Below are positions 12,781-31,178 of a DNA stretch of 32,201 nt, piece after piece. The notes beneath the pieces were generated by a model. The model made no database searches. It was not told where the DNA came from and saw only the letters and a program-made list of their open reading frames with translations. Location: contig JASHQW010000033.1 of the NCBI GenBank assembly GCA_030038875.1, positions 1-32,201 of the forward strand. The letters are read 5' to 3'. The number at the start of each line of letters is the position of its first letter. The first letter of the stretch is position 1. Source of the DNA: Gammaproteobacteria bacterium (GTDB lineage Bacteria > Pseudomonadota > Gammaproteobacteria > Steroidobacterales > Steroidobacteraceae). The position numbers and the translations under genes are program-made.

Positions 12781-15234
12781 TTAACGGAAGCGCTCGAGCG
12801 CGACCCGCAGCTCGTCCATCGTCTGGAAGCGCTTGTTCTTGTCGACCGCCATCGCCTTCACCACCAGATCCGAGAGGCCGGGCGGCAGGTTGGGGTTCAG
12901 GTCCTGCGGGACACGCGCCTTGCCCTGCACGTGCTGGTACATGACCGACATGTGATCGCCGCGCGAGTAGGGCGGCACGCCGGTCACCATCTCGTAGAGC
13001 ATGACGCCGAGCGCGTAGATATCGGCGCGCTCGTCGACCTTCTTGCCGAGGATCTGCTCGGGGGCCATGTACTTCGGCGAGCCGATGACGTAGCCGGTCT
13101 TGGTGAGCTGCGTGTCGCCCTCGCGCTGCGCCGCCGCGACGCCGAAGTCCACGATCTTCAGCAGCCCCTCCTGGTTGATGAGCACGTTGGCGGGCTTCAG
13201 GTCGCGGTGCACGATGCCCTGCTGGTGCGCCACCGCCATGCCGGTGCAGATGTCGATGCCGAACTGCATGGCGCGCTTCAGCTCGACCGGTTTCTCGTTG
13301 ACGACTTCGCTGCCGAGCGTATGCGAGGGGAAGTACTCCATCGAGATGGCATAGTTCCCCTGGATGTAGAGGAAGTCGTAGATGCGGATGACGTTCTTAT
13401 GGGTGATCTTGCGCGAGTAACGCAGCTCATGGACGAAGCGCTTCATCACCTCCTCGTCCTGCGAGACGTTCGGGTTGAGGAACTTGAGGATGAGGCGCTC
13501 ATCGACCACCGTGTCCTCCATCAGCAGCACGGTGCCGAAAGCGCCGCGCCCGATGCGATCGATGTACTTGTAGCGGCCCTCGATGATGTCGCCGGGCTTG
13601 AGCGTCTGGATGTCGAGGCGCGCGGCGGCGGAGGCCGCGGCCTCGGCCTGACGGCGCGCCTGGCCATCGATCACCACCGTGCGGGTGGGCTCGTGCGCCG
13701 CCGCCGGCGGCGGGCGCACGCCGCTTTGCGCCGGGGCGGGCGGCATGGTCGGCGGCAGCGCCGAGGGAGGCGGCACGCTCGGCGCCAGGGTGGCGATGCC
13801 GGCGATGCGGTTATCGAGCTCGGTGACCGCGGCCGCGGCCATGCGCGAGATGGTCTGATCCTGCGAGCCGGCCTGCGCCTGCAGCTCCTTGCGCACCTGG
13901 TCGGCCTGGCTCTCATCGGCCACCTTGGAGAGCGCCTGCATCGCCTCGATGCGGATCTCGCGCTCGGGACGGGCCACGAGCGGCAGCAGCTCATCCACCA
14001 GCTTGGCATCGCCCAGCTTGCCGAGCGCGCGCACCACGATCGGCATGGCCTTGCCGTGGCTGCCGGTATGCAGCATTTCCATGAGGCGCGGCACGGCACG
14101 CTTGCTGCCGATCTCGGCGAGCGCGTCCACCGCGCGCTCGCTCACCCACCAGTCGCTGTCACGCGTGGCCTGGATGAGCGAGTCGACCGCGCGCTCGTCC
14201 TTGGTCTGGTTGAGGATCTCGATGGCGGCGCGGCGGATGTCCTCGTCCTTGTCGCGCACCAGCTGCAGCACCGCGTCGATCACCTTCGGACCGCCGATCT
14301 TGCCGAGCGCGTCCGCGGCGCGGCTGCGCACCCACCAGTCGCTGTCCTTGAGCGCCTCCAGCAGGTACTTGACCGACTTGGCGTCCCCGACCTCGTTCAG
14401 CACCTCGACCGCCGCGCGCCGTGCGTTCTCGTTCTCGTCCTTGAGCACGGGGATCAGGTGGCGGATCGTCTCCGGGTGGTTGGCCTTGATGACGACGTCG
14501 ACGGCCTTGTTGAGCACGTCGATTTCCGGGTCGCGCAGCAGCGCGCATACCCGCTCGACGTCGATGGGGCCGTCCATGCGCTGCAGCGCCGAGAGCGTCG
14601 CGCTGCGGATCAGCTTGTTGGGATCCTTGAGCAGGCCCTGCAGCGTGCTCTGCACCTCCGGGGTGTTGAAGCGCCCCAGGGTGTTGATGATGTGCACGCG
14701 CGCGATCGGGTCCTTGCCCTGGACGCGGCCGATCAGCTCGGGGAGCGCGCTCTTGTCGGCGATCTCGCCGATGAGGCGGAACAGCGCCGCCTTCTCGTTC
14801 GGCTCCTGGGCGTAGGCCGCGGTGAGGAGCTCGCGCACCGAGAAACGTGACTTCTGCGCGGTAATGACCTCGAGCAGGGCCGACTTGGAGATCCCCTGGG
14901 TGTTGAGCGCGTCGAGCAGCAGGTGCGCCGGGTAGTTGCGGTTGCTGGTGAGCGCCCAGGAGATGCCCGAGATGACGCGCGGGCTGCCCTCGATCAGCCC
15001 CTGCATGTACTGGGGGAAGGTCTTTGGATTGAGGAGCGCCGCGAGCACGTCGACCAGCGCCAGGGTCGCCGCCTTGTCGGCCTCCGGGAGCGCCGCGAAT
15101 ATGGACTCGATGGCGCCCGGGCCGACCTGCTTCAGCGCCGCCACCGCCTTCTGCGTAGCCGGGTTCGACGGATCGCTCGAGGTGCGGATCTCGTGGATCA
15201 GCCGGTCGGCGCGCAGGTTGGTGAAAAAGCTCAT
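12781..15234 (-). CDS. HEAT-repeat protein with C-terminal Hanks-type Ser/Thr kinase; ORF open to 15291, likely ATG at 15234
   Basis: HEAT repeats (DSDWWVRSRAADALGKIGGPKVIDAV...); kinase motifs GRGAFGTVLL, HRDLKPANVLIN, DFGVAAA, SPKYMAPEQ, DIYALGVMLYEMVTG. Confidence 0.93.
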   Translation of the reverse strand: MSFFTNLRADRLIHEIRTSSDPSNPATQKAVAALKQVGPGAIESIFAALPEADKAATLALVDVLAALLNPKTFPQYMQGLIEGSPRVISGISWALTSNRNYPAHLLLDALNTQGISKSALLEVITAQKSRFSVRELLTAAYAQEPNEKAALFRLIGEIADKSALPELIGRVQGKDPIARVHIINTLGRFNTPEVQSTLQGLLKDPNKLIRSATLSALQRMDGPIDVERVCALLRDPEIDVLNKAVDVVIKANHPETIRHLIPVLKDENENARRAAVEVLNEVGDAKSVKYLLEALKDSDWWVRSRAADALGKIGGPKVIDAVLQLVRDKDEDIRRAAIEILNQTKDERAVDSLIQATRDSDWWVSERAVDALAEIGSKRAVPRLMEMLHTGSHGKAMPIVVRALGKLGDAKLVDELLPLVARPEREIRIEAMQALSKVADESQADQVRKELQAQAGSQDQTISRMAAAAVTELDNRIAGIATLAPSVPPPSALPPTMPPAPAQSGVRPPPAAAHEPTRTVVIDGQARRQAEAAASAAARLDIQTLKPGDIIEGRYKYIDRIGRGAFGTVLLMEDTVVDERLILKFLNPNVSQDEEVMKRFVHELRYSRKITHKNVIRIYDFLYIQGNYAISMEYFPSHTLGSEVVNEKPVELKRAMQFGIDICTGMAVAHQQGIVHRDLKPANVLINQEGLLKIVDFGVAAAQREGDTQLTKTGYVIGSPKYMAPEQILGKKVDERADIYALGVMLYEMVTGVPPYSRGDHMSVMYQHVQGKARVPQDLNPNLPPGLSDLVVKAMAVDKNKRFQTMDELRVALERFR

Positions 15235-22896: not shown

Positions 22897-24843
22897 GTGA
22901 TGCGCAAGCGCGGACTGCTGTTGCTGCTGGCTCTGCTCGCCGGTGCCGCGTTCGGGGGCGCGACAGCCTCTTTGGGTGCGCAGCCCGCGGCACCGCCGAC
23001 GCCGCCACCTGCGCCGGTCTCTCAGCCGGCGCAGGAGCAACCAGGCGTTCAGCCGGCGCCGGAGCAGCCGGCGGCGACGCCTCCCGCGGCTGCCGCGCCT
23101 CAGCCGGCAGCAACCGAGGCGCCGGCGGCCGCCGAGACCCTGGCGCCCGCCCAGCCGGCCTCCGAGCCGAAGCTCGGGTTCTTCCATCGTCACGCGAAGG
23201 GGCAGGCCTGGGTGGCCGCGGCCAATCCGCTAGCGGTCCAGGCGGGGCTCGAGATTCTCGCCAAGGGCGGCAGTGCTATCGATGCCGCGGTCGCGGTGCA
23301 GACCATGCTCGGGCTGGTCGAGCCGCAGAGCTCCGGCATCGCCGGCGGCGCCTTTCTCATGTACTACGACGCGCGCAGCCGCGAGGTGAGCGCACTCGAC
23401 GGGCGCGAGAAGGCGCCGGCGGCCGCGCCCGCCAACATGTTCCTCGACGAGCACGGCAAGCCCCTGCCGTTCCTCGAGGCGGTGCGCAGCGGCCGCTCCA
23501 CCGGCGTGCCGGGCGTGATTGCGATGCTGTACGCGGCGCATGCGAAGTTCGGCGCGATGCGCTGGAAGGAAGACTTCGCGCCAGCGATCCGCGCCGCTAG
23601 CCAAGGCTTCCGGGTGCCGGCGCGGCTCGCAATGTTTCTCGGCGAGGGATCGCCGTTTCCGCCGACCAACGAGATCCGCATGCTGTTCTCGCGGCCGGAC
23701 GGCGAGCCGCTCGAGGCCGACGACGTGTTCAGGAATCCCGAGTACGCCAAGACACTCGAGGGCATCGCGCGCGAGGGCCCGCGCGCGCTCTATACGGGCC
23801 CGATCGCGCGCGCCATCATCGCCGGGACGCACGAGGAGCCGCTGCCCGGAACGATGACGCTCCAGGACCTCGCTTCCTATCGTCCCGAATGGGACCAGCC
23901 GCTGTGCCGACCCTTCCGCCACTACTCCGTGTGCGCGCCGCCGCCGCCCGCGGGCGGGGTCTCGCTGCTCGAGCTCCTTGGCATGCTTGAGAAGACCGAC
24001 ATCGCTGCGCGCGGCCCGAACGATCCCGAGGCCTGGTTCCTGTTCGCCCAGGCGAGCCGCCTCGCCTACGCCGACCGCGACCGCTACGTCGCCGATCCGC
24101 ATTTCGTCGCCGTGCCGGTCGAGCGGCTGCTCGATCCCGCGTACCTGAGGTTGCGCACCCAGCTGATCGGCGAGCACGCGGGCCCCGCGCCGCTGCCGGG
24201 TGAGATCGCGGTGCCGCGCGGCCGGGACGCCACCACGGAGTCGCAGGGGACGAGCCACTTCGTCGTGGTCGACGCGGACGGCAACGTCGTATCCATGACC
24301 ACCACCATCGAGTCGGTATTCGGCTCGGGGCGTACCGTGGGCGGCTTCGTGCTCAACAACCAGCTGACGGACTTCTCTTTCACTCCGAGCGACGCGGGGC
24401 AGCCGGTCGCCAACGCAGTGCACGGGGGTAAGCGGCCGCGCTCCTCGATGGCGCCGGTCATCGTGCTCGATCACGACGGCGCTTTCGTCGCGGCGCTCGG
24501 CTCGCCGGGTGGCTCCGCCATTACCGAATACAACGCCAAGGCACTCGTCGGGCTCCTCGCCTGGAAGCTCACTCTCAAGCAGGCGATCGAGCTGCCGAAT
24601 CTGATCGCCCGCGGCGACAGCTTCAACGGCGAGCTCGCCAAGTTCACGCCCGAAGTGCTCGCGGGGCTGCGGGAGCGCGGCATGGTGCTGAAACTGGGCC
24701 GCGCCGAGAACTCGGGCCTGCACGGCGTCGTGCGCCTTCCCGACGGCACCTACGAGGGAGCGGCCGATTCGCGCCGCGAGGGCACGGCGAGCATGTTGGC
24801 GCCGCGGCCGGCGAAAGCGAAGCACGCGGCCGCGGGCAAGTAA
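22897..24843 (+). CDS. ggt: Gamma-glutamyltransferase with a Pro/Ala-rich N-terminal linker
   Basis: AANPLAVQAGLEILAKGGSAIDAAVAVQTMLGLVEPQSSGIAGGAF, processing site ESQG/TSHFVVVDADGNVVSMTTTIESVFGSG, signal peptide. Confidence 0.95.
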   Translation: MMRKRGLLLLLALLAGAAFGGATASLGAQPAAPPTPPPAPVSQPAQEQPGVQPAPEQPAATPPAAAAPQPAATEAPAAAETLAPAQPASEPKLGFFHRHAKGQAWVAAANPLAVQAGLEILAKGGSAIDAAVAVQTMLGLVEPQSSGIAGGAFLMYYDARSREVSALDGREKAPAAAPANMFLDEHGKPLPFLEAVRSGRSTGVPGVIAMLYAAHAKFGAMRWKEDFAPAIRAASQGFRVPARLAMFLGEGSPFPPTNEIRMLFSRPDGEPLEADDVFRNPEYAKTLEGIAREGPRALYTGPIARAIIAGTHEEPLPGTMTLQDLASYRPEWDQPLCRPFRHYSVCAPPPPAGGVSLLELLGMLEKTDIAARGPNDPEAWFLFAQASRLAYADRDRYVADPHFVAVPVERLLDPAYLRLRTQLIGEHAGPAPLPGEIAVPRGRDATTESQGTSHFVVVDADGNVVSMTTTIESVFGSGRTVGGFVLNNQLTDFSFTPSDAGQPVANAVHGGKRPRSSMAPVIVLDHDGAFVAALGSPGGSAITEYNAKALVGLLAWKLTLKQAIELPNLIARGDSFNGELAKFTPEVLAGLRERGMVLKLGRAENSGLHGVVRLPDGTYEGAADSRREGTASMLAPRPAKAKHAAAGK

Positions 24844-24851
24844 GCGCCACT

Positions 24852-24943
24852 GCGCAGCCGGCAAAAACGACGCTTTTTGCCGGCGGTCGACGGAGTAATG
24901 TCCGGCAAAAGCGCCGCAGGCGACTTTTGCCCAATCTACTAAC
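24852..24943 (-). repeat. Structured dispersed intergenic repeat, copy A (two hairpins)
   Basis: Stem GCCGGCAAAAA (24857-24867) / TTTTTGCCGGC (24874-24884); stem GGCAAAAG (24904-24911) / CTTTTGCC (24924-24931); linker in reverse complement GGACATTACTCCGTCGACCGC; aligns end to end with 31040-31132. Confidence 0.85.
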
Positions 24944-29461: not shown

Positions 29462-31048
29462 ATGGCTGATCTCGCTGCCGAAATCCGTCGGCGACGGACC
29501 TTCGCGATCATTTCGCATCCCGACGCGGGCAAGACCACTCTCACCGAGAAGCTGCTGCTGTTCGGCGGCGCGATCCAGATGGCGGGCACGGTCAAGGGCC
29601 GCAAGGCCGCCCGCCACGCCACTTCCGACTGGATGCGGCTCGAACAGCAGCGCGGCATCTCGGTGACCTCCTCGGTGATGCAGTTCCCGTATCGCGACTG
29701 CATCGTGAACCTGCTCGACACCCCGGGGCACGAGGATTTCTCCGAGGACACCTACCGCACCCTCACCGCGGTGGACTCTGCGCTCATGGTCATCGACTGC
29801 GCCAAGGGGGTCGAGGAGCGCACCATCAAGCTGATGGAGGTCTGCCGGCTGCGCGACACGCCGATCATGACCTTCATCAACAAGCTCGACCGCGACGGGC
29901 GCAGCCCCATCGAGCTGCTGGATGAGATCGAGAGCGTGCTGCGCATCGGCACGGCGCCGGTGACCTGGCCGATCGGCATGGGGCGCGAGCTGCGCGGCAT
30001 CTATCATCTCGCCGAGGACCGCATCTACGCCTACGAGGCTGGGGAGCGTGGACGGGTGGGGGAGAACCGCATCATCGACGGTCTCGCGGGCGAGGCCGCG
30101 CGCGAGTTTCTCGGCGAGCTCGCCGCGCCCTTCACCGAGGAGATTGAGCTGGTGAAGGGCGCCACCGAGGCCTTCGACCGCGAGGCCTATCGCGCCGGAC
30201 AGCAGACCCCGGTGTTCTTCGGCTCCGCCATCAACAACTTCGGTGTCGAGGAGCTGCTCGCCGCGTTCGTGACGCATGCCCCGGGGCCGCTGCCGCGCGC
30301 GGCGCGCGAGCGCATCGTGCAGCCGGACGAGCCCGCGCTCGCCGGCTTCGTCTTCAAGATCCAGGCCAACATGGATCCCGCCCATCGCGACCGCATCGCG
30401 TTTCTGCGGCTGTGCGCCGGCAAGTACACGCGCGGCATGCGCCTCTATCAGGTGCGCCTCGGCAAGGAGGTGCGGGTCGCCGACGCGCTCACCTTCATGG
30501 CGGCCGAGCGCGCCCAGGCCGAGGAGGCCTACGCCGGGGACATCATCGGGCTGCACAACTACGGCACCATCAACATCGGTGACAGCTTCAGCCAGGGCGA
30601 GCGGCTCGCTTTCACCGGGGTGCCAAACTTCGCGCCGGAGATCTTCCGCCGTGCGGTGCTCAAGGATCCGCTGCGCGCCAAGGCGCTGCAGAAGGGTCTC
30701 TCGCAGCTGTGCGAGGAGGGGGCGACGCAGCTCTTCCGGCCGCTGCGCAGCAACGAGCTGATCCTCGGCGCGGTCGGGCAGCTGCAGTTCGAGGTGGTGG
30801 CCTTTCGCCTCGCGGACGAGTACGGGGTGCAGTGCGTGTTCGAGCCGGTCACGGTGTACACCGCGCGCTGGGTCGACAGCGCCGATGGAGAGCGCCTCGA
30901 GGAGTTCCGCAGCCGCGCCCACGAGCACCTGGCGCTCGATCACGCCGGCGCGCTCGTGTACCTCGCGCCGTCGCGCGTCAACCTCGAGCTGACGATCGAG
31001 CGCTGGCCGGGGATCGCCTTCCACGAGACCCGCGAGCATGTTAGTTAA
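29462..31048 (+). CDS. prfC: Peptide chain release factor 3
   Basis: [70 protein letters not shown]; ends TREH-VS-stop. Confidence 0.97.
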
Positions 31049-31132
31049 TTGGGCAAAATCGGCATCCTGCCGATTTTGCCGGACATTACTTCGTGGACCG
31101 CGGGCAAAAGGCGCGACTTTTGCCCGCTGCGC
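31040..31132 (+). repeat. Structured dispersed intergenic repeat, copy B (two hairpins)
   Basis: Perfect 13-bp stem GGCAAAATCGGCA (31052-31064) / TGCCGATTTTGCC (31068-31080); GGACATTACTTCGTGG (31081-31096); perfect 11-bp stem GCGGGCAAAAG (31100-31110) / CTTTTGCCCGC (31117-31127). Confidence 0.88.
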
Positions 31133-31136
31133 CTCA

Positions 31137-31178
31137 CGCCGGCCCTCGCCGGCGATTTCGGCGGACATTACTTCGTGG
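31137..31178 (+). repeat. Third, partial unit of the copy-B repeat
   Basis: CGCCGG/CCGGCG hairpin (31137-31142/31149-31154), then CGATTTCGGCGGACATTACTTCGTGG (31153-31178), 24/26 identical to 31071-31096. Confidence 0.8.

Follow-up and report, generated by a model that had tools for sequence, protein, structure and literature searches.

A two-hairpin repeat with covarying stems, probably a mobile DNA element, found mostly at stop codons in one genus of uncultured Gammaproteobacteria

Results

Two copies of a two-hairpin repeat lie within the window

The window, i.e., the whole 32,201-nt stretch of contig JASHQW010000033.1 that was analysed, contains two copies and one partial unit of a two-hairpin repeat (Table 1). 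Copy A is located between the convergent genes slt (stop codon ending at 24939) and ggt (ending at 24843), and copy B is located directly 3' of prfC, where the first base of the repeat completes the prfC stop codon TAA (31046-31048). The window also encodes a protein in which HEAT repeats are joined to a Ser/Thr protein kinase domain (12781-15234, minus strand). An earlier note on this DNA had claimed compensatory base changes between the hairpin 2 sequences of the two copies, and its coordinates and letters proved exact. In plus-strand letters, hairpin 2 of copy A is formed by GCCGGCAAAAA (24857-24867), a loop (24868-24873), and TTTTTGCCGGC (24874-24884), and that of copy B by GCGGGCAAAAG (31100-31110), a loop (31111-31116), and CTTTTGCCCGC (31117-31127). 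The copies differ at two stem pairs, on both arms: pair 3 is C-G in copy A and G-C in copy B, and pair 11 is A-T in copy A and G-C in copy B. Each copy also contains a second hairpin (hairpin 1), equally covarying and absent from the earlier note. Because copies A and B alone are little proof, the whole repeat family was collected.

Table 1. Positions of the repeat copies and their parts in the window
Feature	Position	Strand	Evidence
Copy A of the two-hairpin repeat	24851..24935	-	covariance model match, 97.2 bits, E 4.5e-25
Copy A, hairpin 1: 12 bp, one base unpaired	24904..24931	-	
Conserved linker GGACATTACTCCGT of copy A	24890..24903	-	linker pattern match
Copy A, hairpin 2 (hairpin of the earlier note): stem of 11 bp, loop of 6 nt	24857..24884	-	
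Copy B of the two-hairpin repeat	31048..31133	+	covariance model match, 99.8 bits, E 8.5e-26
Copy B, hairpin 1: stem of 13 bp, loop of 3 nt	31052..31080	+	
Conserved linker GGACATTACTTCGT of copy B	31081..31094	+	linker pattern match
Copy B, hairpin 2: stem of 11 bp, loop of 6 nt	31100..31127	+	
Partial second unit 3' of copy B, hairpin 1 3' arm and linker GGACATTACTTCGT	31151..31178	+	linker match 31163-31176

The repeat forms a multi-copy family in a single genus

The unit is approximately 85 nt long and runs from ATTGG through hairpin 1 (~12 bp), the linker, and hairpin 2 (11 bp) to TGCGC, with the consensus stop codon-TYC-ATTGG-hairpin 1-GGACATYACTYCGWYKRCC-hairpin 2-TGCGC. The linker pattern GGACATTACTYCGT, with at most 1 mismatch, matched 21 times in the genome, compared to 0 matches for the reversed control. 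A covariance model trained on 15 copies yielded 65 matches at E<=1e-8 in the examined regions of the window's own genome, including a few tandem partial units; the number of full or near-full copies counted in that genome with this model was about 60. Loops and linker are kept at the sequence level across copies; furthermore, the left end of the repeat is precise and strand-specific, and the right end is imprecise.

The covariance model matched in 29 of 49 genomes of the same genus, with up to 55 copies, but in 0 of the 31 other genomes of the order and 0 of the 320 other sampled genomes of the class, the latter under stricter filters that could lose weak matches. Among the genomes searched, this multi-copy family is confined to one genus. 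The relatives found via the ggt gene are metagenome-assembled genomes of uncultured Gammaproteobacteria, one of them named as a palsa isolate. No IMG/VR viral contig carried the linker pattern, and Rfam 15 gave no match on the window.

Several variants were observed. A long form at L085:3558-3708 (minus strand), found also at L286, L291, L294, L295, L307, and L313 (genomes G000 and G027) and in G021, has a hairpin 2 with a conserved apical domain of ~65 nt (CTCGATGCGC...CGATCACCTCRGCAGCCGAGCACTYCGTAGCAAGG..GGCGCACGGG) and stem letters that vary compensatorily; it had no match in Rfam, and the short loop GCGYGR looks like a deletion product of this apical domain. In a second subfamily (L121, L122, L125, L126, L299, L308, and L311), a linker SAGGCCMACC... 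replaces GGACATYAC..., and the kinds of hairpin are unchanged. Locus L309 (G000:C170, ~618-766) comprises three repeats in tandem (period 65 bp) at a gene end, and one of its motifs resembles the apical domain of the long form.

Empty orthologous sites and identical copies point to movement

At the ggt/slt pair, L214 and L216-L220 have a gap without the element, i.e., empty orthologous sites of copy A, and in L233 the gap is occupied by an oppositely oriented element that is fused to the ggt end. The site of copy B, between prfC and a gene for a ferritin-like protein, is, in G009, G015, and G027, a spacer some tens of bases long that lacks the element, yet G027 carries 55 copies elsewhere; in G021, this site holds a different copy of the repeat. 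Three copies in G027 are identical over 84 nt at unrelated loci, where they follow CTAG, CTAG, and CTAA, and G017 contains tandem copies. Taken together, empty orthologous sites and identical copies at unrelated loci indicate, as judged from the sequences, that the repeat has moved.

Most copies begin at the stop codon of a co-directional gene

With gene calls from a simple codon-bias caller of our own and orthologous copies counted separately, 73 of 129 distinct copies start between -5 and +8 nt from the stop codon of a co-directional gene, 34 at exactly 3 nt and 11 with the stop codon completed by the first base of the element; the corresponding value for random intergenic points is 4.4%. 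At the right end, a convergent stop codon was found in only 22 copies. The stop codons that adjoin the element are TAG in 44 of 73 cases versus 125 of 511 elsewhere (p 3e-9, copies treated as independent). The sequence YTAR is common at the left end, and 35 of 54 such sites with an element lie at a stop codon versus 60 of 555 background sites (p 3e-18, on the same assumption). The TAG of slt looks native, given that the empty sites of L216 and L220, when read in reverse, show the same CGC-TAG end. A YTAR target combined with purifying selection fails to explain the 15-fold excess of stop codons among YTAR sites, and this targeting model is incomplete. Some copies (L204, L209, L212, and L213 in G027, and L184 in G002) carry an additional right arm (GGTTCCGCRGTGTTARCACGCC) that extends to a second YTAR. 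This YTAR lies ~40 nt after hairpin 2 in these few G027 and G002 copies only and may represent either a target duplication of 4 bp or a convergent gene's stop codon.

Stem pairing is maintained while the letters drift

In an alignment of 65 copies from the window's own genome, double changes occurred at 19 of 23 stem pairs, in 192 cells, and 96.9% of cells were paired; as controls, shuffles gave 40 double-change cells, and sliding the partner columns gave 13-20. A second set of 70 distinct copies, nearly all from relatives, likewise showed double changes at 19 of 23 pairs (171 cells, compared to 33 in shuffles), with 97.5% of cells paired. Both alignments were fitted to the covariance model and hence lean towards it; therefore, a separate phylogeny-aware test was written as our own reimplementation of an R-scape-like procedure, in which parsimony substitution counts were re-thrown on a FastTree tree and a G-test with APC was applied, using 60 simulated alignments and a fitted tail. 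On 123 copies, this test returned 6 column pairs at E<0.05, all 6 in stems and 0 elsewhere, so that the covariation that the earlier note had proposed to check is borne out. The covariation is real and above the phylogenetic null, and pairing is thus maintained while the primary sequence drifts.

Double changes were also seen between copies at orthologous sites, the flanking genes of which (tuf/tRNA-Trp and tRNA-Lys) are named here from our own reading of the sequence. At the tuf/tRNA-Trp site, which has alignable flanks in six genomes, the stems differ by double changes in hairpin 1 (GCTGAAATCGCC versus GCTGAAATTGCC versus GATGAAATTGCC) and in hairpin 2 (GCCGGC versus GCGAGC versus GCGGGC), and the same is true of two further sites with four genomes each, the tRNA-Lys site and the 3' end of a protein-coding gene. 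This suggests that the stem differences are, at least in part, more than differences between source copies, although double changes at orthologous sites could possibly arise via gene conversion or via repeated insertion into one and the same site.

An RNA helix would be expected to tolerate G-U far better than A-C. With the loop-closing pair left out, G-U and A-C cells numbered 8 and 10 in one set and 9 and 10 in the other, compared to ~1300 and ~1560 Watson-Crick cells, respectively. As G-U is no commoner than A-C, either the constraint acts on DNA or a mutation process erases both intermediates, and the stem constraint looks like that of a DNA palindrome rather than an RNA helix. The earlier note had read the changes as selection on the fold rather than on primary sequence; the maintenance of pairing beyond the phylogenetic null agrees with this reading, but its functional-RNA sense is unsupported, G-U cells being as rare as A-C cells. 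Likewise, assignment to a structured RNA family was rejected, since Rfam 15 gave no match and the covariation, although significant, came with equal G-U and A-C counts.

Searches for a mobilising enzyme or an autonomous parent

The Y1/RAYT domain PF01797 was not found in the draft genomes G000, G002, G005, G017, G021, G027, G031, and G067, and gave only partial matches in G062 and G069; similarly, no reverse transcriptase (PF00078) was found in G000, G002, G005, G017, or G027. A search for an autonomous parent by the left-end pattern returned only truncated copies and chance matches. Terminal inverted repeats were rejected, with a mean best match of 7.01 of 12 versus 6.89 in shuffled sequences. 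A full gene for the integron integrase IntI was found in four carriers, G000, G002, G017, and G027, as well as in G066, which does not carry the repeat. Integron integrase genes (TIGR02249, 442-452 bits) are carried by several genomes of this uncultured genus, among them G000:C10:8756-9685 (L332), G027:C80 (L334), and G066:C3 (L336). Beside the intI genes of G027 and G066 lie attC arrays of ordinary type (CTAACAATCGCTGGAG...CGTTAGR); the repeat model gave no credible match beside any intI.

Discussion

We consider it fairly probable that the hairpin first reported is part of a non-autonomous mobile DNA repeat of ~85 nt that is mobilised in trans by an enzyme and the stems of which are kept paired. 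Under this explanation, the enzyme would recognise both hairpins on a single DNA strand, the loops and linker through their sequence and the stems through their shape. It would join the left end to the 3' side of a YTAR-type sequence, in most cases the stop codon TAG or TAA, and purifying selection would then leave the copies that spare genes. A change in one arm of a stem would be matched on the opposite arm through selection for the DNA hairpin, through replication templated by the hairpin, or through a combination of the two.

The maintained pairing itself is evident from the alignments, and selection is inferred as its cause; selection and template switching are inseparable on these data. 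A less likely but substantial alternative is that the compensatory changes are mutational, with template switching between hairpin arms during replication homogenising the stems without any function. The equal rarity of G-U and A-C intermediates is as expected if both are erased, and template switching is documented to create and maintain perfect hairpins (PMC8794818). However, its clearest trace, inversion of the loop, was not found among the common loops of hairpin 1 (TGC 33 versus GCA 0; AGGAA 30 versus TTCCT 0) or of hairpin 2 (GCGYGR ~94 versus inverse 0), though loop inversion is also rare in the template-switching paper (PMC8794818), and the conserved loops and linker suggest that the unit is recognised.

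Either a DNA hairpin or arm homogenisation by template switching fits better than a functional RNA, and we regard as improbable the idea that the repeat works as a 3'-UTR element stabilising or processing the mRNA of the upstream gene. The 57% of copies that begin at the stop codon of a co-directional gene and the high stability of the folded RNA (z -3.4 and -5.5) are in its favour, as is the thought that REPs act in part by stabilising or processing mRNA (PMC3733652); but G-U is tolerated no better than A-C, some copies lie 5' of tRNA genes or between divergent genes, and the signature of an intrinsic terminator (GC-rich hairpin plus T run) was not found at copies A and B.

Returning to a mobile DNA repeat, the closest known systems are the REPs and BIMEs associated with RAYT (TnpA_REP), which are likewise short extragenic palindromes in many copies with complementary stem changes, mostly downstream of genes and patchy between species (PMC3733652, PMC8266576). 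Unlike these, the present repeat has two dissimilar hairpins whose order and orientation are fixed, longer stems, no conserved GTAG or CGTC tag, a precise left end at a stop codon, and no detected RAYT; furthermore, G-T pairing is described as frequent in GTAG REPs (PMC3733652, PMC8266576), whereas G-U pairs are not favoured here. Although the repeat shares with REPs a short palindrome, many copies, and an extragenic location, membership of the GTAG or CGTC super-family was rejected because an unpaired GTAG or CGTC tag was not found beside the palindrome in the copies examined: the hairpin 1 stem is preceded by ATTG, the linker sequence ahead of hairpin 2 is variable (CCGTCGACC, TCGATTGCC, TCGTTTCC), and on the opposite strand a TGTC is found one base away from hairpin 1, yet the A-T start of CGTC stems is absent (cf. 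PMC3733652). It is quite doubtful that the repeat is a REP mobilised by a RAYT (Y1) transposase that is still present or was lost recently; the palindromes, the high copy number, and the extragenic location 3' of genes resemble REPs (PMC3733652), and CGTC REPs also occur without a dedicated transposase (PMC3733652, PMC8266576), but no conserved tag adjoins a stem, PF01797 was not detected in most carriers, and the hairpins are not inverted pairs.

Like PATEs and the ends of IS200/IS605 elements, the repeat is transposase-free, lacks terminal inverted repeats, has a palindrome near each end, and is joined strand-specifically 3' of a short motif (PMC3119063). It differs in its imprecise right end and in that neither an IS605-type parent nor a Y1 transposase was detected in most carriers; classification as a PATE was rejected, as no ends in common with an IS605-type transposon or Y1 transposase were found, PF01797 being absent from most carriers. 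MITEs are similarly short non-autonomous repeats near genes, but the present repeat has no terminal inverted repeats and apparently no consistent target duplication.

Integron attC sites lie directly 3' of stop codons and act as folded single strands, and the repeat resembles them in both respects, but it has two hairpins, is dispersed among housekeeping genes, and contains no R'' and R' core boxes (RYYYAAC...GTTRRRY). That the repeat is an attC site, or else a cassette without genes that IntI has placed, is barely credible despite this resemblance and the full IntI genes in four carriers, given the missing core boxes, the ordinary attC sites and lack of credible repeat matches beside intI, the presence of IntI without the repeat in G066, and the presence of the repeat without detected IntI in G005, G031, and G032.

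Altogether, the repeat may be described as a variant of the short palindromic mobile repeats. It stands out by its two dissimilar hairpins, which covary and keep a fixed order, by its strong docking at stop codons, by the lack of a known tag, and in that no transposase was detected. A search of mostly open-access literature for palindromic repeats docked at stop codons found only REP papers (PMC3733652, PMC8266576), and an earlier description is possible. We would also put forward, as a speculation that is rather unlikely to be correct, that a recombinase inserts the unit in one orientation exactly after native TAG or TAA codons, beyond what YTAR and purifying selection would produce; such an enzyme would be neither a RAYT nor an integron integrase, and its choice of target would be tied to translation termination or mRNA 3' ends.

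With more than 120 copies in many species, and with both orthologous and empty sites, the family provides a clean natural data set on how bacterial palindromes keep their pairing, which bears on the question of DNA-hairpin selection versus templated repair. It also points to a putative mobilising enzyme with a strong preference for stop codons, for which the stop codon would serve as a safe harbour of interest to both mobile-element biology and genome engineering.
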